A program made the translations under genes and the position numbers. This document shows positions 4,183-16,116 of a DNA stretch of 44,422 bases, in pieces. Under the pieces are notes generated by a model, which worked only from the letters and a program-made list of their open reading frames with translations, was not told the DNA's origin and made no database searches. Numbering within the stretch: the stretch's first letter is position 1; every line of letters starts with the position of its first letter. Source of the DNA: Thauera aminoaromatica S2 (GTDB lineage: Bacteria; Pseudomonadota; Gammaproteobacteria; Burkholderiales; Rhodocyclaceae); NCBI RefSeq assembly GCF_000310185.1, contig NZ_AMXD01000017.1, forward strand, positions 1 to 44,422. Reading direction: 5' to 3'.

Positions 4183-5088
4183 ATGAAGAAAGTCACCAAG
4201 GCGATTTTTCCTGTGGCCGGCATGGGCACGCGCTTCCTGCCCGCCACCAAGGCGAGCCCGAAGGAGATGCTGCCGATCGTCGACAAGCCCTTGATCCAGT
4301 ACGCCGTTGAAGAGGCGGTCGCCGCCGGCATCACCGACATGATCTTCATCACCGGTCGTACCAAGCGCTCGATCGAGGACCACTTCGACAAGGCCTACGA
4401 GCTCGAGACCGAGCTCGAGGCGCGCGGCAAGAAGCAGCTGCTCGAGATCGTGCGCCAGACGGTGCCGAAGGGCGTCAACTGTATCTACATCCGCCAGTCC
4501 GAGGCGCTCGGCCTCGGCCATGCCGTGCGTTGCGCCAGCCACGTGGTGAGCGACGAGGCCTTCGCGGTGATCCTCGCCGACGACCTGCTCGACAACAAGG
4601 ATGGCACGCCGGTGTTGAAGCAGATGGTGGATGTGTACAACTATCACCGCTGCTCGGTGCTCGGCACGATGAATGTGCCGCGCGAGGAAACCCGCAGCTA
4701 CGGCATCGTCAGCACCGAATCCGACAAGGGCCAGGTGCAGCGCATGACCGGCATCGTCGAGAAGCCCAAGCCCGAGGAAGCACCGACGACCCAGGCCGTG
4801 GTCGGTCGCTACATCCTGACCCCGCGCATCTTCGATCACATCCGTGCGTTGAAGCCCGGCGCCGGTGGCGAGTACCAGCTCACCGACGCGATCGCATCGC
4901 TGCTCAAGGAGGAGGCCGTGCTGGCCTTCCAGTTCGACGGCGTGCGCTACGACTGCGGTTCGAAGCTCGGCTACCTGAAGGCGACGATCGAGTTCGGGTT
5001 GCGCCATCCGGAAACTGGTGGCGACTTCGCGGCCTACCTGAGCGGGCGCTTCGGCGCCGAAGGCAAGGCGGCGAAGGCAGCCAAGTAA
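4183..5088 (+). CDS. galU: UTP-glucose-1-phosphate uridylyltransferase GalU
   Basis: GalU makes UDP-glucose from UTP and glucose 1-phosphate, the precursor for LPS core, exopolysaccharide and other glucosylated products. The 301-residue protein matches the usual family length. It carries the nucleotide-binding loop ([17 protein letters not shown], residues 14-30), followed by [11 protein letters not shown] and the EKPKPEEAP region typical of bacterial GalU. The ATG at 4183 is preferred over an in-frame upstream ATG at 4120 because [15 protein letters not shown] is the conserved N-terminus and a purine-rich ribosome site (GGGAGAG) lies just upstream. It follows ligA by 79 bases and ends before a strong hairpin that separates it from the convergent cytochrome cluster. 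Confidence 0.97.
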
Positions 5089-5117: not shown

Positions 5118-5145
5118 AAACGGGCGGCCCGCGGGTCGCCCGTTT
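5118..5145. terminator. Hairpin terminator between galU and the convergent cytochrome cluster
   Basis: A 9-base perfect inverted repeat (AAACGGGCG / CGCCCGTTT, arms 5118-5126 and 5137-5145) flanks a 10-base loop. It lies 29 bases after the galU stop, and its right arm touches the stop codon of the 503-aa cytochrome gene on the other strand. The A-rich/T-rich arm ends make it a plausible terminator in both directions, though the T-run is only three bases long. Confidence 0.65.
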
Positions 5146-6656
5146 CACATCGTCTTGAGGTATTCGAGCAGGTCCGCCTTGTCCGCGGCGGGGAGAGTGG
5201 TTCCGAACGCGTGACCACGGTTGCTGCCACCACGGGCCCCGACGTCGTGCACGGTGCCGATGCGTTCGGCCTCGGGGCCGTGGGTGACGAAGCCGACCCG
5301 GTCCGGATCATAGACGTCGTAACCGCGCCAGAAGCGGGTCGGGCGCTGCGCGGGCGGTTCGAGCAGGTCGCGCAGCGAGGGCACCGAGCCGTTATGCAGG
5401 TATGGCGCGCGCAGCCAGATGCCGTCGAGGAAGGCGGCGACGTAGCCGGTCAGCGGGGCTTCGACCAGGCCCGGACGCTCGATGCCCATCCCGGCCACCA
5501 CCTGATTCGCTTCGCGCGCCGCGCGTTCGTTCCATGTCGCGATGCGCTCCGCGCTGGTGCCGACCTCGGCAAGCGGGATCACCGTTCCGGTGCGCGCCGA
5601 TGCGTGGCAGCCGGCGCAGGTCGTGTCGAACACCTGCTTGCCGCGCGCTACAGCGGCGGTATCGACTGCGAACGGATACGGCGGCGCACGTTTCGCCGAA
5701 ACGTATTCGATGAGCCAGCGCACCTCGCCGAGAAACTCGGCGTTGTCCTTGGGTGGCGCGCCGAGCAGGCCGAGCGCGGAGTCGATCACCACCGAATACG
5801 CGTCGTGGCTGTCGCCGGCGAAGTTCATGCGCATACCCTGATCGGCGCGGTACTTGCCGAGGTTCCACAGCGAAGGCATGTCGGTCGGGCCGAAACTGTC
5901 GTCCATCGGCCAGCGGATCATGAAGTACTTGGTCAGGTTCATCGCATCGTCGCGGCCGCGGCCCCAGGGCGGGAAATCGTCGCGGTACAGCCAGGCGAAC
6001 TGCTGTTCGCGCTCGAGCAGGCGCTTGCGCGTGATCGGGATGATCACGAAGCGATAGAGCAGGCGGTCGATGAAGGACAGGTCGGTGACCAGATTGATCT
6101 CGGCCATCAGGTTGTCGGCGTTGAAGCGTGGGTCTTTCGCGCAGTCGACCAGAAAGCGGAAGAAGGCCCACAGGTTCAGCGTGTGATTGGGGCCGGTCGG
6201 CACGAAAGTCGGCGCCGCATCGGCCTGGGTGCGGTAGCTCGTGGTGTGGCAGGACGCGCAGTTGTTGGCCACGCGCGGAAAGCCCACCACCTTCTTCGAG
6301 AAGCCGACCGGCAGCTCCTGGCCTTCTTCCCACACCACGCCGAAGGCGGCGTAGCCGCCCGGGCCCGGCAGCTTGTCGGGAAACATCCGCGGCAGCACGT
6401 AGAAGATCCAGTAGGGGATGCCGGCATCGCGTTCGGCACCGATCGAGCCGTACTTGAAGCGCATGTCGGGATCGCGGGTGATCCATTCCGGCTGCGCTTC
6501 CTCGCGAAAGAACTTGTACCAGGCGAAGGCGCCGCCGGCGGCGCCGAGCGCGAGCAGCAGGAGCAGCGCAACGAGCAGGCTGCGGCCGGTGTTGCGGCGC
6601 CGGCAGACGAGCCGGGTGGGGCGCGGCCCCGGATTCGTGCAGGGGGCGAATTTCAT
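5145..6656 (-). CDS. Membrane-anchored di-haem cytochrome c, RoxA-like (503 aa)
   Basis: Predicted periplasmic di-haem c-type cytochrome held by one N-terminal membrane segment (about residues 25-47). Two haem-attachment motifs are visible: CASCH at 133-137 and CAGCH at 347-351. After the second haem comes the conserved stretch WLRAPYLHNGSVP (414-426), and the C-terminus (TTLPAADK...LLEYLKTM) resembles the end of di-haem peroxidase/RoxA-type proteins. It is a clear paralogue of the 515-aa protein encoded just upstream in the operon (16-base gap): both begin their soluble part with FKYGS, share LPGPG and EEG..LPVG..K before haem 1, and share the APYLHNG block. A GAGGAG ribosome site supports the ATG. 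It is the last gene of the five-gene cluster. Known relatives include rubber oxygenases and peroxidase-like proteins; the substrate here is unknown. Confidence 0.8.
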   Translation of the reverse strand: MKFAPCTNPGPRPTRLVCRRRNTGRSLLVALLLLLALGAAGGAFAWYKFFREEAQPEWITRDPDMRFKYGSIGAERDAGIPYWIFYVLPRMFPDKLPGPGGYAAFGVVWEEGQELPVGFSKKVVGFPRVANNCASCHTTSYRTQADAAPTFVPTGPNHTLNLWAFFRFLVDCAKDPRFNADNLMAEINLVTDLSFIDRLLYRFVIIPITRKRLLEREQQFAWLYRDDFPPWGRGRDDAMNLTKYFMIRWPMDDSFGPTDMPSLWNLGKYRADQGMRMNFAGDSHDAYSVVIDSALGLLGAPPKDNAEFLGEVRWLIEYVSAKRAPPYPFAVDTAAVARGKQVFDTTCAGCHASARTGTVIPLAEVGTSAERIATWNERAAREANQVVAGMGIERPGLVEAPLTGYVAAFLDGIWLRAPYLHNGSVPSLRDLLEPPAQRPTRFWRGYDVYDPDRVGFVTHGPEAERIGTVHDVGARGGSNRGHAFGTTLPAADKADLLEYLKTM

Positions 6657-6672
6657 GGCGGCACTCCTCGCA

Positions 6673-8220
6673 TCAGAAGGTCTTCAGGTACTCGACCAGC
6701 GCATCCTTGTCCGCGGCGGGCAGATCGGTGCCATAGGCCGGGCCTTCGTGACCGCTGTTGCCGTTGCCCGGCAGCGTGGTGTCGAACAGGAAGTGATCGG
6801 TTGCGGTCTGGGCCCTGCCCGTCGGCGCGGCGCATTGCGCAGGATCGGCAGCGCTGGCGAAGCCGACCCGCAACGCATCGATCAGCGTGCCGCCGCGCAC
6901 AAAGCACGTCGGCCGAGCGAAGGCGGGCTCGAGCAGATCGCGCAGGGTGGGCACGGAGCCGTTGTGCAGGTAGGGCGCGCGCAGCCAGATGCCGTCGAGC
7001 GGCATGTTGGCGTAGCCCCAGGTCTTGCGGAAATGGCGGAAACGATGCGGATAGCCCGCATAGAGGGTCGCCTGATTGACCGCCAGATCCCGGGTGTAGG
7101 AATCGAGCCGGGCGGGGTCGGTGGCGATGTCCGCGATCGGGGTGACATGGCCGACCTTCGGCCCTGCGAAGTCGCTGCCGCTCGCGCCGTGGCAATCGGC
7201 GCAATAGCGCGCATACAGCGCCGCGCCGCGCGCGGCGAGTGTCTTATCCACCGGCAGCGGCCACGCCGGCGGGCCGAGGTCGAGCAGCCAGGCCTCGACC
7301 CGGGAGATTGCCGCCAGGTCGATGGTGGGGGGCGTGGTGCCGGTACCGAAGGCTGCACTCTTGTTGCGCTCCTCGGTGTGGGTGTTGTTCCCGTCCCAGT
7401 GCAGTTCCATGCGCTCGCCATCGTCACGTTGCATGCGCTTGCGCTGGTTCCAGATCGACGGAAAATCGGCGGCGCCGAGGCGCTCGCGGGCAGGAAGTCG
7501 TTGCACCGGAAAATTGAACAGGACCTTTGCGGCGTTGAAGGTGTCGACCCGACCCGGCCCCCAGGGCGCTTGCGCGGACACGAAGCCAAAGCGCGCGCGC
7601 AGCATCAGCAGGCGCTCGCGCATCAACGCGATCGCCACCGGATAGACGAGGTAGCGATCGACGAGCCCGAGTCCGCCGCTCAGGCGCTCGATCTCCGGCA
7701 CGATGAACTCACGCGAGAAGGTCGGGCCAGCGGCGCATTCGAAGAAGAAGCGCTGGAAGGCGAGAATGTCGAAGCGATGGGCGGGCATGCCGACGACCAG
7801 GCGTGCGGGCGCAGCGGGCGTGTCGCGAACGAGGCCGGCGTGGCAAGCGGCGCAGTTGAGGAAGACGCGATCGATGCCGAGGTGGCGCCGCTTCGACACG
7901 CCCACCGGCAGGTCGCGGCCTTCCTCGAAAATCAGGCCGAGCGACGCGTAGCCGGGACCGGGCAGATGTTCTGCGCACACGGTCGGCAAGGCCTGCCAGA
8001 TCCAGTACGGGAAGCCCGATGCGCGCTCGCCGCCGGTCGAGCCGTACTTGAAGTGCTCCACCGGGTCTGCATGGACGACCGGCTCGTCCGGCACGAACCG
8101 CACGAGGGCATAGCCGCCCGCGAGCAGGAGCAGCAGCCAGGGCAGCAGCACGAGGATGCGGAGCAGCGTGCGCGCGAGGCGCAGGCGATGCGTTGTGGGG
8201 ACGGACTCGGGCGTGTTCAC
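6673..8220 (-). CDS. Membrane-anchored di-haem cytochrome c, RoxA-like (515 aa)
   Basis: Predicted periplasmic di-haem cytochrome with an N-terminal membrane anchor (about residues 20-41, Leu-rich, after a short basic cytoplasmic tail). Haem motifs are CAACH (123-127) and CADCH (340-344), 217 residues apart, almost the same spacing as in the downstream 503-aa paralogue (214). The block DGIWLRAPYLHNGSVPTL (409-426) is nearly identical in the two. Between the haems there is a conserved APWGPGRVDTFN stretch and a WDGNN segment not seen in the paralogue. The start is GTG at 8220 with a GAGGT ribosome site five bases upstream. An oxidoreductase role at the outer face of the inner membrane follows from the haems and the anchor. 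The reaction is not known. Confidence 0.8.
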   Translation of the reverse strand: MNTPESVPTTHRLRLARTLLRILVLLPWLLLLLAGGYALVRFVPDEPVVHADPVEHFKYGSTGGERASGFPYWIWQALPTVCAEHLPGPGYASLGLIFEEGRDLPVGVSKRRHLGIDRVFLNCAACHAGLVRDTPAAPARLVVGMPAHRFDILAFQRFFFECAAGPTFSREFIVPEIERLSGGLGLVDRYLVYPVAIALMRERLLMLRARFGFVSAQAPWGPGRVDTFNAAKVLFNFPVQRLPARERLGAADFPSIWNQRKRMQRDDGERMELHWDGNNTHTEERNKSAAFGTGTTPPTIDLAAISRVEAWLLDLGPPAWPLPVDKTLAARGAALYARYCADCHGASGSDFAGPKVGHVTPIADIATDPARLDSYTRDLAVNQATLYAGYPHRFRHFRKTWGYANMPLDGIWLRAPYLHNGSVPTLRDLLEPAFARPTCFVRGGTLIDALRVGFASAADPAQCAAPTGRAQTATDHFLFDTTLPGNGNSGHEGPAYGTDLPAADKDALVEYLKTF

Positions 8221-8268
8221 GGTGACCTCGGATCTGCAGGACGGTGCGGTGCGATGTCGGAGCGCCGA

Positions 8269-10410
8269 TCACCCTGTCGGGACTCGGCAGGGCGCGAGGG
8301 TGGCGTACGGATGGGCAAGCACGTCGGCGCTGCGTACGCCACTTGCCTGCAGCACGTGCTCGAGCAGATCGCGCATCGCCGCCAGGTCGGGCGACTGCAG
8401 GAAGGCGCCGGCATGCGCGGCAGCGGGCGGCGGCATCGGGGTTTTCGAGCGGGCTGCGGGCGGCAGCCGGTTCATGTCCAGCCGATGGAGCATGCGTTGC
8501 GCACAGGTCGCGAGATTGGCGCGTACCTGTGCTTCGTCGCCGTGCAGGAAGCCGGGCGGGAAGGCGGTGTTCTCGGCATGACACTGGCTGCACTGGCGCA
8601 GGAAGGGCTGCAGGTCGGCGGGCCAGTGCGTCGTGCGGGACCGGGTGACATCGGCCATCAACGCGGGTGGAGGCGCTGCGGCGGCGGGCGGGGCAGGAAC
8701 GTCCTCGCCGAGCCCGCGTAGCAGCGGCGCGAGCAGGGCCATCCGGCGTGCCGGGCCGCCCGTCAGCGCATCGTCCTGACCGGCGACATTTGCCTGCGCG
8801 AGGGCCTCGACGGCGTGCCCGAGCGGCTCGAGGTCATCGACGAGTTCGAGGGCTGCCACGATCGCCTCGGCCGCGCTCGGCGACCCCGGCAGGTGGGCGC
8901 TGCCGTCGTCGCCACCAAGCCGCAAGGTGGTGATGGCTTCCCCACTGCTGGCGCGGATCGGACCACCCGCCCTGGCAGTGAGCGCGAAGCGGATCGGCCA
9001 GCCGGATGCCGGGTCGTGGTCCTTCGCGATGGCCAGCGTCACACCGGTGTGCGCGCTCGACCCGGACAACTCGAGACGGTCGAGGATGCCGTCGGCGCTG
9101 CGCCCGCCGTCGAGCCTGATGCGCGCCTGCAGCCGGACCTCGGATCCGCGCGCGCAGTCGAGGTCGAGCCGCGTTGCGTCGGTGGCCCGGCGCAGGGTGC
9201 AGCTCAGGTCGATCTCCCGCGCTGCAGGCTGTGGCATGCGCGCGAGGGCGCGCTCGATGCGCGCAAGGTCGGCGCGCGAGAACAGAGTCCCGAGCAGGTG
9301 GATGAAGCGCATCACGTCGCCCGGGTCGCGTCCGCGCCAGTGCTCGATCGGCGCCCGCAGCGCGAGCGGATCGAAGACCGCCGGAATGTCCGCATAGCGC
9401 ACGAGCTCGGCATCGCTCGGGGGCGCAATCCCGCCCTCGATGCCGGCGAAGGGCTGGCGGTTGGGGATTTGCGGATCGGGAATGACGAGGCCGTCCGGCC
9501 AACGCGCCTGCCAGTTGGCGAGCAGCGGATCCACCAGGCGGTTCGTGGCATCCGCGCGCGCGACCGGCGCCCCGGTGCCGATCAGCCGCTGGCGCAGCGC
9601 GTGCAGCAGCGCCTGGGCACGGCAGTCGATGCCGGCCTGCGGGGTGGCGAGGGCGCAGCCGTCCCGCCACAGGCGCTGGGCCACGCCGAGGCGATTCGCG
9701 CGTGCGGTCGCGGCGTCGATCGCTTCAGGCACATCGACGCCGTGACGCCAGGGCAGACCCTGATAGTCGAGGCCGGTCGCAGCCAGGCGTGCGGCGACCG
9801 GCGGGCTGGCGCTGGTCTCGTCCCACGACGGGCGCGAGAAGATCGGCGCCTCGTTCTGGTGGCAAGCGAGGCAGAGCGTACGGTTCGCGGCGACCACCCG
9901 CGGCCTTGCCCCGGCGCGGTAGTCGAGCACGAGCTGGAACTCGAAGCGACCCGCATCCTCGTTGTAGCTGATCACCTCGAGCGCCTCGGCACGTTCGTGG
10001 TGCGCGACGTACAAGCGGTCCTTCAGGTAGAGGTGTCCCGCGGGTGCGTCGCTTGCCGGCTCACCGGTGACCGCGGCCACCACACGCGGAAAACGGAAGG
10101 CATCGACGTCTCCTGCGGCGTGGCGCTGCAGCGAGCGCCCGAGCGGGATCAGCACGATCGCCAGTCCGCCGTTCGGGTCCTCGCCATCGAGCTGCGCACG
10201 CACGCGTTGGAGCAGTGCGGGGAACGGGAAGGGCACCTGCTGCGCGCCGTTCGCCCCGCGCTCGAGCAGGCGATCGAACAGCGACCGCCCGTGCGGCGAC
10301 GGTGCGCGGTCGACCTCGGCGGCATTGGCCGGAGCCATGAACACGCTGCCGAACAGCGCGCCCAGCAGCACCGGGAGCACATGGCGGGAGACAGGACGAG
10401 ACAGTCTCAT
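8269..10410 (-). CDS. Secreted di-haem cytochrome c family protein of unknown function (713 aa)
   Basis: A signal peptide (about residues 1-31, ending near APANAAEV) targets this protein to the periplasm. It has two CXXCH motifs very far apart: CLACH (180-184), in a striking context ACHQNEAPIFSRPSWDET, and CSQCH (607-611), near the C-terminus in a small c-type domain ending in KTPMPPP, which may supply a Met ligand. About 420 residues with no haem motif lie between them. It lacks the APYLHNG block of its neighbours, so it is a different family. The ATG at 10410 is chosen over the longer open frame because it starts the signal peptide and is preceded by AGGGGA. It sits third in the cluster, 71 bases after the lipoprotein gene and 48 before the 515-aa cytochrome gene. 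Function is not recognised. Confidence 0.75.
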   Translation of the reverse strand: MRLSRPVSRHVLPVLLGALFGSVFMAPANAAEVDRAPSPHGRSLFDRLLERGANGAQQVPFPFPALLQRVRAQLDGEDPNGGLAIVLIPLGRSLQRHAAGDVDAFRFPRVVAAVTGEPASDAPAGHLYLKDRLYVAHHERAEALEVISYNEDAGRFEFQLVLDYRAGARPRVVAANRTLCLACHQNEAPIFSRPSWDETSASPPVAARLAATGLDYQGLPWRHGVDVPEAIDAATARANRLGVAQRLWRDGCALATPQAGIDCRAQALLHALRQRLIGTGAPVARADATNRLVDPLLANWQARWPDGLVIPDPQIPNRQPFAGIEGGIAPPSDAELVRYADIPAVFDPLALRAPIEHWRGRDPGDVMRFIHLLGTLFSRADLARIERALARMPQPAAREIDLSCTLRRATDATRLDLDCARGSEVRLQARIRLDGGRSADGILDRLELSGSSAHTGVTLAIAKDHDPASGWPIRFALTARAGGPIRASSGEAITTLRLGGDDGSAHLPGSPSAAEAIVAALELVDDLEPLGHAVEALAQANVAGQDDALTGGPARRMALLAPLLRGLGEDVPAPPAAAAPPPALMADVTRSRTTHWPADLQPFLRQCSQCHAENTAFPPGFLHGDEAQVRANLATCAQRMLHRLDMNRLPPAARSKTPMPPPAAAHAGAFLQSPDLAAMRDLLEHVLQASGVRSADVLAHPYATLAPCRVPTG

Positions 10411-10481
10411 GCTCGTTCCCCTGCGCGATCTTGCGGGCCGCGGACGCAGCCGCCGCCCGCAAAACCACGCGCGGACCGTTC

Positions 10482-11405
10482 TCAGCCACCCCCTGCCGCG
10501 GCGGCGATCAAGCGCTGCTGGGTGCCGCTCCAGCAATCCTGATCGACCTGGCCGGTCTTCAGGAACGCTTCGCGACTCGCCGCGATCATCTGCGCGTTGT
10601 GGAGGACGAAGTTCACCACGAAGGCGCGGTCCATGTAGGCCCGACCAAGGTAGAAGCCCGGGTAGACCATGCGGATCTCGTCGCGGATCGCGAAGCCGTT
10701 GCGGCCCGCGAGCAGGTCGGGCATGCGCCGGTAGCCCGGCAGTTCATCGGTGAAGGCGTAGTCGATGATGATGGATTCGCGCCGGCCGTCGAGCAGGCTC
10801 TGGCCGCAGTAGAGCTTCGCCGGGAACAGCAGCCACTGGTCCTTGCCGCCGACATTGAGCTTCTGCAGCGGGGTGTCCGCGCTTTCCTCGACGAGGCCGA
10901 GCTTGCGCAAGGTGGTGAGATCCTCGATGCGGTTACGCAGCAGGCGCTCGTCGCGGTAGAACACCTTGCCCTTCCACAACATCTCGCCAACGAGGTCGAG
11001 CTTGCCGCCCGCCACATTGACCAGCAAGCCCTTCAGGCCGCCGCCGGCGATCTCGGACAGGCGCAGCTTGCCGCTGCCACCGCGCGGGAAGAACAGGTCG
11101 CCGTCGAACGCGCCGTCGGGGATCGGCCCGGCGCTCAGGCGCGCATAGATCTGGTCGACCTGCTCCTGGTCGAGCTGCGCGATGTTCTGCGGCGTGATCT
11201 TGTACAGGTCGGCCGTCGACAGCGGATGGCGATGTTCCAGCCAGGCGAAATCGGGCTTGCCGGCATAGCCTTCGGCATGCGGGGCGAAGGCGATCTCCGG
11301 CGCCCGCTCCCCGTCGTCGTCGAACAGGCCGCATCCCGTGACCGCCATGGCGGCCAGCATGCAGACGGCGAGCGCCCCAAACGGCCAGTGCGAGATCCTT
11401 GTCAT
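10482..11405 (-). CDS. Lipoprotein of unknown function within the cytochrome cluster (307 aa)
   Basis: The N-terminus (MTRISHWPFGALAVCMLAAMAVTGCG) is a typical lipoprotein signal with the lipobox VTGC, so the mature protein should be anchored through Cys24 and face the periplasm. The rest is soluble, with no CXXCH and only a few cysteines, and matches no family I recognise. A segment YPGFYLGRAYMDRAFVVNF near residue 260 and a basic/aromatic region around WLLFPAKLYCGQ look like a folded core. The ATG at 11405 has GGGGGA eight bases upstream. An alternative ATG at 11420 would spoil the lipobox position and overlaps the ribosome site. It starts 17 bases after the stop of the 854-aa di-haem gene, which suggests co-expression and a shared job, perhaps as substrate-binding or scaffold partner of the cytochromes (inference). 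Confidence 0.7.
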   Translation of the reverse strand: MTRISHWPFGALAVCMLAAMAVTGCGLFDDDGERAPEIAFAPHAEGYAGKPDFAWLEHRHPLSTADLYKITPQNIAQLDQEQVDQIYARLSAGPIPDGAFDGDLFFPRGGSGKLRLSEIAGGGLKGLLVNVAGGKLDLVGEMLWKGKVFYRDERLLRNRIEDLTTLRKLGLVEESADTPLQKLNVGGKDQWLLFPAKLYCGQSLLDGRRESIIIDYAFTDELPGYRRMPDLLAGRNGFAIRDEIRMVYPGFYLGRAYMDRAFVVNFVLHNAQMIAASREAFLKTGQVDQDCWSGTQQRLIAAAAGGG

Positions 11406-11422
11406 GATGAAGTCCCCCATGC

Positions 11423-13987
11423 TCAAAGCGTTGCGAGGAAGGCGATCAGGGCGTTCTTGTCGGCCTCGGACAAGTCCTCGCCAAAGCGGTGGCCCGCGTT
11501 CTCGACCTCGGCGGTGCAACTGCTGTACACCTGCTTGATCAGGTAGGGGCGCGCGCGCAGCGCCTCGACCAGGCCGTTCGGCTTGCCGGTCACTTCCCGC
11601 GCGACGGCCTGGAGGTCGGCAAGCACCTTCCTCGCGCTCTCCTTGCCCAGGCGCTTGGCGAGGCTGCGCTCGAGCTCGTCGGGCGCGGTCTTCGCGCGCA
11701 CGAGATCGACGATGAAGGCCTTGTGCTGGAAGTTGCCCAGCGTGCTGGCGGTCACGCCGCGGCCGTCGATCTCGCTCGGGATCGTCAGTTCAAAACCGAG
11801 CAGGCGTTCCTTGTCGGTGCCGTCCCATAGCCGCGGGCCGAGGCGCAGGGTCACGTCCTCGTTCAGCAGCGTCACCTTGGGGATGCGCTGGGCGGGATTG
11901 AGCAGCGCCTGCATCGACAGGGTGTACAGCTTGAATCGGCCTTCGACGCTCGGGTCGTACTCGAAGCAGGCGGGCTGGCGCTCGGCGGGCAACAGCTTGA
12001 CATTGCTCGCATCGACGTAGCGCGGACGCTGGGCATAGAAGTCGTTGGCGGCGTTGTGCGGTTTGCCGCAAAGCTCGGGGCCGAGCGCGTTGTTGTGCAG
12101 GAAGGGGGCGTGCGCCCACAGGTTGAGCAGCGAGATGTTGCGGTAGTGGCCGCGGCCACCGTCGCCGGGTTCCTTGACGTTAGGGTCGGGCGGCTGTGCG
12201 CGCAGGGTTTCGGAGCCGTATTCCTGCCAGACGTGGCCGGCCATGTGGTTCGAGTGCAGGGCGCGGCAGCGGAAGGTGCCGACCTCGGACACTGCGGTGG
12301 GGCCATCGTTGCCCAGCCAGTCCTCGCGCAGCCCCGTCTTGAGGTCGAGCTTGTGGAAATCGAGGCCGGCAAGCTGGCCAGTCGCGGCCGCGGGCTGACT
12401 CGAGTGGCAGCGTGCGCAGCCATTGGCGAACACTTCACGGCCACGCGCGACCGCACCCGCTCCGAACGTGCGTTCGAGATCGGCGATCAGGTCCTGATCG
12501 GTGTAACGCGCGCCGGGGTTGGCAACCCGCAGCGTGTTCTCGCGTGCCTCGCGCAGGTCGGTGGCATGGCCTTCGGCCGACATGAAGAAGTCGAGAATGT
12601 TTCCCAAGCGGTCCTCGACGGCGCGGAAGTTCGGGCAGTCCCGCCTACACTGGCCGATGTCGAAGGGCGTCTGGCCAAAGCCGCGTTGTTGCGGATCGAG
12701 CTGGCGCAGGTCTGCAAGGTGATTGACCCAGCACTGCTCCGAGCACGAGCCGATGTTGAAGTACACGCGCTGGATGGCTTCGAGCGCGCCGATCGAGTCC
12801 TCACCGCCCTTGAGGATGTGGTGTACGGCTTCCTTGTGCAGGGACTTCTCCCAGCATTTGCCGTTGCGGCCCGGCTCGCACCAGCACCGGGTCTCGTCGT
12901 CGCCCTTGGCGCAGGAGGCGGTCTTGCGCCACTTGATCACGGACTCGTTGGCGAAGGTCGGACGCTTGCCGAGATTGATCAGTGCGTTGATCGTGCCGGG
13001 ATTGTTGACCTGGTCGGTCGGGATCGCCGAGGTGTCGCTGGTTCCCGGCCTGGCATGGGCGAACATCTGCCATTCGAGGGTGTTCGATGCCATGCCCGAG
13101 ACCATGATCTCGGAGACGCGCGTGTATTGGTTGCCGATCAGCCCCTTGATGTTCTCCCATGCCGGGCGCGCCGGGTCAGCCGGGGGGTTGAGCGGATCGA
13201 AGGCGATGTGGCAGGAACCGCAGGAGGTGCCGATCAGGAAGGGGGGCTCGATGGCACCGTCCTGGAGGTGGGAGCGGGCCGCCTCGCCCCGGCCGCCGGC
13301 GGCGGCGATCGGCCGGTTATAGCCTTCCCAGGTGCCCGGGCTGCCGTTGAGCTTCAACCAAGCTGCGCGGTCGAAGCGCGGGTTCGGAAACTTGCGGATG
13401 CCCAGTGCGCCGGTCGAGGTGCCGAAACGCAGGTCGCAGGCGTCGTGGCGCTGGTCGGCTGGGCCATGCACATCGCCGGGCTTCAGCGCTGCATCGCGGA
13501 AGTCGCAGGCCGGATCGCGGTAGCCGCTGCGCCCGACATGGGGGAGGAGTTCCTCGTCGCCCGGACACCAGTCGAGACCGTAGGTCTCGTCCAGGCTCTT
13601 CGCCGGGCAGTCGGGGCTGCCGGGCACGCAGCAGGCCGGATCGTTGATGATGCCCCAGGCGCGGAAGCGGTCGCCGCGCTCGTCGCTGCGCAGCACGCGG
13701 AACCAGTCGATCAGCACGCCCACCCGCTGCTGGAACACGTAGGTGTGGAAGCGCTCGTTGCCGGCAGTGGCCTTGAACCAGATCAGCCGTCCGGCGCATT
13801 CGGACTCGTTCAAGCCTTCCCGCGCGCAAGCCTCGTAATACGGGAGGTCCTGGGCATGAATTCTTGCCGGCGTCGACGCGGGCGAGGCGGCGGGCGCATC
13901 AGCGATTGCCAGGGGAAGGGGCGGGGCGAGCATGGCGGCAATGAAGACAACGGCCGCCAACACCACCTGCGATGATGGACGCATCAT
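11423..13987 (-). CDS. Di-haem cytochrome c peroxidase / RoxA-like protein (854 aa)
   Basis: First gene of the cytochrome cluster. The product has a signal peptide (about residues 1-30) and two haem sites, CGSCH (256-260) and CARCH (524-528). After the second haem come a GPTAVSEVG segment and NLWAHAPFLHNNALGP (622-637), the counterpart of the APYLHNG block in the two smaller paralogues. It ends with LSEADKNALIAFLATL, the usual end of di-haem peroxidase-like proteins. The region before and between the haems is rich in further cysteines (for example C119, C120, C127, C141, C359, C368, C370, C378, C415, C419, C447, C451), suggesting disulfides. It is much longer than classical cytochrome c peroxidases (about 320-350 aa) and somewhat longer than rubber oxygenase RoxA (about 680 aa). 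The start at 13987 is supported by AGGAGA; a second ATG follows at once. Periplasmic oxidase or peroxidase activity is likely; the substrate is unknown. Confidence 0.8.
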   Translation of the reverse strand: MMRPSSQVVLAAVVFIAAMLAPPLPLAIADAPAASPASTPARIHAQDLPYYEACAREGLNESECAGRLIWFKATAGNERFHTYVFQQRVGVLIDWFRVLRSDERGDRFRAWGIINDPACCVPGSPDCPAKSLDETYGLDWCPGDEELLPHVGRSGYRDPACDFRDAALKPGDVHGPADQRHDACDLRFGTSTGALGIRKFPNPRFDRAAWLKLNGSPGTWEGYNRPIAAAGGRGEAARSHLQDGAIEPPFLIGTSCGSCHIAFDPLNPPADPARPAWENIKGLIGNQYTRVSEIMVSGMASNTLEWQMFAHARPGTSDTSAIPTDQVNNPGTINALINLGKRPTFANESVIKWRKTASCAKGDDETRCWCEPGRNGKCWEKSLHKEAVHHILKGGEDSIGALEAIQRVYFNIGSCSEQCWVNHLADLRQLDPQQRGFGQTPFDIGQCRRDCPNFRAVEDRLGNILDFFMSAEGHATDLREARENTLRVANPGARYTDQDLIADLERTFGAGAVARGREVFANGCARCHSSQPAAATGQLAGLDFHKLDLKTGLREDWLGNDGPTAVSEVGTFRCRALHSNHMAGHVWQEYGSETLRAQPPDPNVKEPGDGGRGHYRNISLLNLWAHAPFLHNNALGPELCGKPHNAANDFYAQRPRYVDASNVKLLPAERQPACFEYDPSVEGRFKLYTLSMQALLNPAQRIPKVTLLNEDVTLRLGPRLWDGTDKERLLGFELTIPSEIDGRGVTASTLGNFQHKAFIVDLVRAKTAPDELERSLAKRLGKESARKVLADLQAVAREVTGKPNGLVEALRARPYLIKQVYSSCTAEVENAGHRFGEDLSEADKNALIAFLATL

Positions 13988-14298: not shown

Positions 14299-16116
<1,818 letters not shown>

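Follow-up and report, generated by a model that had tools for sequence, protein, structure and literature searches.

A conserved five-gene di-haem cytochrome unit in Thauera aminoaromatica S2, with a RoxA-type paralogue pair and a tentative role in envelope lipid oxidation

A 44,422-nucleotide stretch of the Thauera aminoaromatica S2 genome (contig NZ_AMXD01000017.1, positions 1 to 44,422; hereafter the window) carries five co-directional genes on the minus strand, here named A to E; the products are a lipoprotein and four di-haem proteins. Gene A (11423..13987) encodes an exported di-haem protein of 854 amino acids (aa), gene B (10482..11405) a haem-free lipoprotein of 307 aa, and gene C (8269..10410) an exported di-haem protein of 713 aa. 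Genes D (6673..8220, with a GTG start) and E (5145..6656) encode di-haem proteins of 515 and 503 aa, each anchored at its N-terminus. The five genes are a real conserved unit. We tentatively read this unit as a horizontally moving, operon-like cassette that may act in the cell envelope to oxidize a hydrophobic substrate of lipid type, probably an unsaturated one. The enzymes are known in kind, as RoxA-like di-haem proteins, and neither the unit nor its B and C families were found described: literature searches covering titles and the starts of abstracts, with most subscription journals outside their reach, returned no description of this gene set.

Conservation of the five genes as one unit

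Genomes of GTDB, one per species, were scanned with A as the query. This yielded 61 loci, a list that is biased to A-holding loci because A was the query. The complete set, ordered A-B-C-D-E along a single strand, was present in 40 of the 61 loci. The remaining 21 comprised four true variants and 17 loci that stop at a contig end or no more than 200 bases from one; full order and strand were thus kept in 40 of the 44 uncut loci. Three of the variants (L059, L076, and L079) have A-B-C without D-E, and the fourth (L068) is without C. Median gaps between the genes across the loci are 15, 38, 15, and 15 bases, and B directly follows A in 58 of the 61 loci, which are all of those holding both. Pairwise distances of the five proteins correlate strongly with one another (Pearson coefficients of 0.83-0.95 over the 28 loci with all five full-length), and the A-E distance correlation was reached by 0 of 1000 permutations. 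A sequence-only reading of the window had proposed that the genes form one system, and the scan bears this out: scattering in relatives, which that reading had named as a refutation, was not seen, and the order is kept.

No constant extra neighbor, such as a regulator or a transporter, was found around the loci; the commonest neighbor cluster occurred in 7 of 61, in a coarse clustering that left out pairs of at least 88% identity and included antisense open reading frames (ORFs). At one further locus, genes for a beta-propeller protein, a FecR-domain protein, and a 141-aa protein stand between A and B-C (L109:10068-18231).

Within the window, ORFs and motifs confirmed the layout first described from the letters. 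The gaps A-B, B-C, C-D, and D-E measure 17, 71, 48, and 16 bases. All eight of the proposed haem sites were located on the minus strand, with exactly two CXXCH motifs each in A (CGSCH, residues 256-260, 13208..13222; CARCH, residues 524-528, 12404..12418), C (CLACH, residues 180-184, 9859..9873; CSQCH, residues 607-611, 8578..8592), D (7840..7854 and 7189..7203, by motif search), and E (6246..6260 and 5604..5618, likewise by motif search). Conservation was assessed in alignments of full-length sequences picked for spread, namely 30 of 60 A, 33 of 58 B, 21 of 32 C, 22 of 42 D, and 22 of 41 E sequences, each together with that of the window. The Cys and His residues of the haem sites are all invariant in these alignments (n = 31 for A, 22 for C, 23 for D, and 23 for E). 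Judged by eye, D and E have a single hydrophobic helix at the N-terminus, and A and C have signal-peptide-like N-termini. An Rfam scan of the window gave 0 matches at gathering scores, and an RNA element was rejected. Between positions 5000 and 14400, 0 sigma-70-like promoters were found, and terminator-like sites numbered 7 against 4.9 expected.

RoxA-like paralogues and their partner proteins

Judged by sequence comparison, D and E are RoxA-type paralogues. They share 38% identity over 471 columns of a full-length profile alignment (E-value 3e-121), both match the Pfam RoxA-like region (E-value 1.9e-16 for D and 4.7e-17 for E), and the D profile matches the RoxA structure 4b2n (E-value 1.5e-16). 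Like RoxA, RoxB, and RoxC (PMC6311187, PMC10837239), they have two haems, a PYxHNGSVP block, and a C-terminal axial His. They differ from these enzymes in being shorter, in having an N-terminal helix anchor, and in being part of a five-gene unit. Membership of D and E in RoxA, RoxB, or RoxC was rejected, as scores against the RoxC, RoxB, and RoxA models (75.5, 58.7, and 54.4 bits for D; 58.0, 51.9, and 43.6 bits for E) are far under the NCBIfam curated cut-offs of 900-1000. D does pass the curated cut-off of NCBIfam NF040606, "di-heme-cytochrome C peroxidase" (167.5 versus 150), and the E protein of the window falls just under it (146.9 versus 150); all 23 aligned E sequences match this model at E-values of 1e-5 or less. 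The Pfam CCP_MauG model was absent among the families with an E-value of 1 or less for any of the five proteins.

Both D and E contain APYLHNGSVP, and the His of this block and the haem His residues are invariant in 23 of 23 sequences of each family. The sequence-only reading had assigned such a block to three of the four di-haem proteins, which was seen again here: it takes the form APFLHNN in A and APYLHNG in D and E, and C has none. The C-terminal axial His is present in all A, in all D, and in 22 of 23 E sequences (one gap). The two families part at positions that matter in RoxA, where Trp302 bridges both haems (PMC4496055) and Phe317 helps hold O2 (PMC6311187). These places probably correspond to W275 and F291 in the D protein of the window, as positioned through the 4b2n profile match, in which this stretch is weak (i-Evalue 0.18). 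Across the D family the Trp302 place holds W in 23 of 23 sequences and the Phe317 place F in 20, L in two, and Y in one. In the E family, positioned through the D-E profile alignment, the Trp302 place holds F in 12, W in eight, L in two, and Y in one, and the Phe317 place holds L in 23 of 23. RoxC is likewise described without F317 (PMC6311187, PMC10837239).

By profile comparison, A is a distant relative of the RoxA-like proteins. Its second CXXCH and PFxHN block are common to D and E, and its C-terminus, including a GH motif, aligns weakly with the RoxA C-terminus (E-value 0.00067). Both haem His residues, the block His631 (PFLHNN), and the C-terminal GH His833 are invariant in 31 of 31 sequences. 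The closest named relatives of A are from Thauera metagenome-assembled genomes (MAGs), with a best identity of 94%.

C matched nothing at cut-off in Pfam or NCBIfam, and a profile comparison with A found no relationship. Its predicted model (predicted local distance difference test [pLDDT] score of 80.2) gave no PDB fold match, the best E-value being 0.09. The earlier reading had placed C in another family, and C does lack the APYLHNG/APFLHNN block. At two loci (L162:8723-13696 and L108:8173-13190), an A-like and a C-like gene are followed by a gene for a 255-258-aa protein with one CXXCH, mono-haem in L162, with no B, D, or E beside them.

B is predicted to be a lipocalin-like barrel. Its model (pLDDT 82.1) matched 4mve in a Foldseek search with a probability of 1.00 and an E-value of 6e-4, at template modeling (TM) scores of 0.30 and 0.58, of which the 0.30 by query length is weak; the other 49 listed matches, which include retinoic-acid-binding barrels, had probabilities of 0.57 or less. 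B has no Pfam or NCBIfam family, and no Pfam family was shared by as many as two of the 34 B sequences in the alignment. The lipobox ends in VTGC, and its Cys is kept in 32 of the 34; B may be sorted to the outer membrane, but the residue at +2 after this Cys varies (G in 14, D in 11, S in four, and E in three). W144 is invariant (34 of 34) and is the sole invariant Trp of the alignment. A class-level search with B, in which two to six candidates per genome were scored, found it in 3 of 369 genomes, the window's own included, one of the three being a weak match with two stops. In the most distant locus, an extra short B-like gene lies ahead of A (L079:9377-9868).

Genomic company of the relatives and candidate functions

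In other bacteria, the genes for relatives of A, D, and E keep company with those for enzymes of lipid and oxylipin type. Rhizobium johnstonii pRL11 and Sinorhizobium fredii pSF45436e each carry a co-directional run containing, in order, genes for an old-yellow-enzyme, a D-like protein, a small protein, an E-like protein, an A-like protein, a GMC oxidoreductase, and a patatin-like phospholipase, the Sinorhizobium patatin match being under the Pfam cut-off. Identities to the window proteins are 45% and 43% for the D-like, 41% for the E-like, and 26% (over residues 57-851) for the A-like proteins. Genes in these runs (L149:4541-16893 and L150:8733-20641) are partly annotated as hypothetical, and the small protein is membrane-like. 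In the plasmid collection, A-like genes occurred in 21 records, all rhizobial, and D-like matches in 65, of which 19 extended over at least 80% of D. Among 398 sampled genomes of the phylum, with only two to six candidates per genome scored, five had A-like genes and 31 matched the D profile at an E-value of 1e-20 or less, four of these near full length; the window's own genome is included in the five and in the four.

Some of these relatives have comparable neighbors; gene picks in the genomic loci among them were mechanical and include some spurious ORFs. The A-like gene of L161 adjoins a GMC oxidoreductase gene, and that of L163 adjoins another that has a patatin gene on its other side; the two GMC oxidoreductases are 43-48% identical to the rhizobial one. 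D-like genes in two genomes and on a Qingshengfaniella plasmid have an animal-haem-peroxidase-family (PF03098) gene within a few genes, and one of these D-like genes adjoins a GMC/hydrolase fusion. The animal-haem-peroxidase superfamily includes cyclooxygenases and fungal diol synthases. A different and more distant group is formed by di-haem genes of Pseudomonas that come with a 380-aa partner.

A working model for D and E is offered, by analogy, by PA2077/PA2078 of P. aeruginosa, the oleate diol synthase pair (10S-DOX and 7,10-DS) of the FadCcp subfamily (PMC4496055). One member of this pair produces a hydroperoxide of a fatty acid, toxic by itself, which the sister protein eliminates (PMC4496055). 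Compared by published description, both pairs are adjacent RoxA-like di-haem paralogues that are periplasmic and have a MauG-type block; the Trp302 place is held by Trp in PA2077, as it appears to be in D, and not in PA2078. The 317 place is Phe in PA2078 and Leu in E. The P. aeruginosa proteins are also longer (634 and 624 aa, against 515 and 503 aa), whereas D and E are N-terminally anchored and accompanied by A, B, and C.

Transferred to the whole unit, this model suggests an envelope assembly line for oxylipin-type lipid oxygenation, a detailed scheme that we regard as rather doubtful. B, the predicted barrel lipoprotein, would draw in the lipid and hold hydrophobic substrate or product at the membrane surface. 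D would bind O2 at its N-terminal haem and oxygenate an unsaturated fatty acid, or another lipid, at its double bond. E, apparently without the oxygen-side Phe, and perhaps A would process the resulting (hydro)peroxide to a stable product, and C would pass or buffer electrons, supplying or draining them. Of the two roles suggested by the sequence-only reading, oxidation of a hydrophobic substrate draws indirect support from the residues of D and E and from the neighbors of the A, D, and E relatives.

RoxA-like di-haem proteins that are inactive on rubber are widespread and lack an explanation; for the RoxC group, a review offers the guess that unsaturated cell-wall fatty acids are the substrates (PMC10837239). 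Here a RoxA-like pair is part of a conserved unit of five genes, together with three further families, and its rhizobial relatives share a run with a phospholipase-like gene. With a defined cassette and this phospholipase-like company, the substrate question becomes directly testable.

Several observations weigh against oxidation of a lipid-type substrate by the cassette. No lipid-enzyme gene is constant around the full five-gene loci, and the lipid link comes from relatives without B and C; searches of the plasmid collection with these two proteins gave no match. A pattern search for the PFxHN block came up empty in the A-like proteins of L149, L150, L161, and L164, which may therefore not work like A; the C-terminal GH was found in those of L149, L161, and L164. 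The match of B to 4mve is weak by TM score. Hosts include Nitrotoga, with all five genes, and a Nitrospira MAG, with a cut locus. Both genera are nitrite oxidizers, which would be odd hosts for a catabolic pathway. PA2078 stayed fully active when its haem His was mutated (PMC4496055), so haem use cannot be taken for granted in a RoxA-like sister, and there are RoxA-like RoxC proteins without rubber activity, according to unpublished results cited in PMC10837239.

Peroxide handling was the other role proposed from the letters alone. As a defense system, A, D, and E would be cytochrome c peroxidases for H2O2 or lipid hydroperoxides, and C would donate electrons. The passing score of D and the marginal one of E against NF040606 are consistent with this, as is the position of an A gene near a trio that includes a DyP-type peroxidase in two unrelated loci: the trio lies 2.3 kb from the A-like gene in L164 and follows A-B-C in L076 (50-66% identity). 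However, the name of NF040606 has no tested function behind it, the classical Pfam CCP/MauG model is matched by none of the five proteins, and D appears to retain W and, in 20 of 23 sequences, F, as in the RoxA oxygenase. We consider peroxide defense unlikely, although it is the strongest of the alternatives. The trio itself (L076:13745-17729 and L164:14020-18029) consists of a family-less 434-aa protein, the DyP-type peroxidase, and a family-less 398-aa protein that is catalase-like by eye; Pfam and NCBIfam gave no result for the 434-aa and 398-aa proteins of L076, nor did a PDB search for the latter.

An electron-transfer chain, in which the haem proteins would take electrons from a GMC or quinoprotein dehydrogenase, appears improbable. 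A-like genes do lie beside GMC oxidoreductase genes in three lineages, and in 6 of 61 loci there is, 1-5 kb upstream, a gene that by eye resembles those for pyrroloquinoline quinone-dependent alcohol dehydrogenases. A dehydrogenase is, however, never a constant neighbor, the commonest neighbor cluster reaching only 7 of 61 loci, and eight haems in four unlike proteins plus a haem-free lipoprotein exceed the needs of a relay.

Less probable still is protein maturation, in which the di-haem proteins would oxidize lipoprotein B at W144 in the manner of MauG or MbnH. MauG and MbnH/MbnP exemplify a di-haem enzyme with a protein partner, and B could be such a partner: W144 is its sole invariant Trp, A, D, and E have the MauG-type PYxHN/PFxHN block, and B stands directly behind A wherever both occur (58 of 61 loci). 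Yet W144 lies within a conserved LWKGKVF stretch and may be structural, A and B are parted by three other genes in L109, and the rhizobial A, D, and E relatives occur without B. No MauG or MbnH model was matched at cut-off, the MbnH model TIGR04039 giving an E-value of 0.089 for the E protein. A true rubber or polyisoprenoid oxygenase system of the RoxA/RoxB kind is very improbable, because in spite of the RoxA-type motifs and the putative W302/F317 equivalents in D, scores are 44-76 against cut-offs of 900-1000, and D and E are membrane-anchored proteins of about 500 aa, whereas the rubber enzymes are secreted and of 70 kDa.

Movement and insertion site of the cassette

Phylogeny of A is consistent with horizontal movement. 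In a quick tree of 59 rows with midpoint rooting and Shimodaira-Hasegawa-like approximate likelihood ratio test (SH-aLRT) support only, the A copies of two Pseudomonas fluorescens and one Azotobacter chroococcum fall inside a 15-row group (SH-aLRT of 99) in which Thauera rows stand on both sides; the inner forks that put them next to Azoarcus are weaker (SH-aLRT of 90 and 85). Several deep rows are MAG contigs (Nitrospira, Vicinamibacteria, and Ardenticatenales), for which misbinning is possible. The differing neighbors, the co-varying protein distances, and this nesting of Pseudomonas and Azotobacter within Thauera and Azoarcus suggest that the set travels as a cassette.

In the window, the cassette is flanked upstream by typA (14299..16116, minus strand) and downstream by the convergent galU (4183..5088, plus strand). 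It had been described as inserted between these core genes, which is correct for this strain and four relatives in the genus, but typA-galU is not its fixed home. Its distribution in Thauera is patchy, C being present in 10 of 28 relatives within the genus. TypA was searched in 29 genus genomes, with a view of the surroundings of typA that reached about 1.5 kb in either direction. A adjoins typA in five of the 29, the window's own included; typA adjoins galU without the cassette in 16, six of which carry C elsewhere; and a further seven have another arrangement or a cut contig. In the remaining genome (G011, 68% complete), a scar is left between typA and galU that matches the final 23 residues of E with 87% identity (L146:2426-2512). 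The several sites within the genus and this scar indicate that the cassette sits at more than one place and was lost at least once. A fixed insertion site was accordingly rejected, as the site differs both inside Thauera and between genera. Among the 61 loci, the ORF cluster overlapping typA, recognized by eye, was seen in four, all from Thauera.

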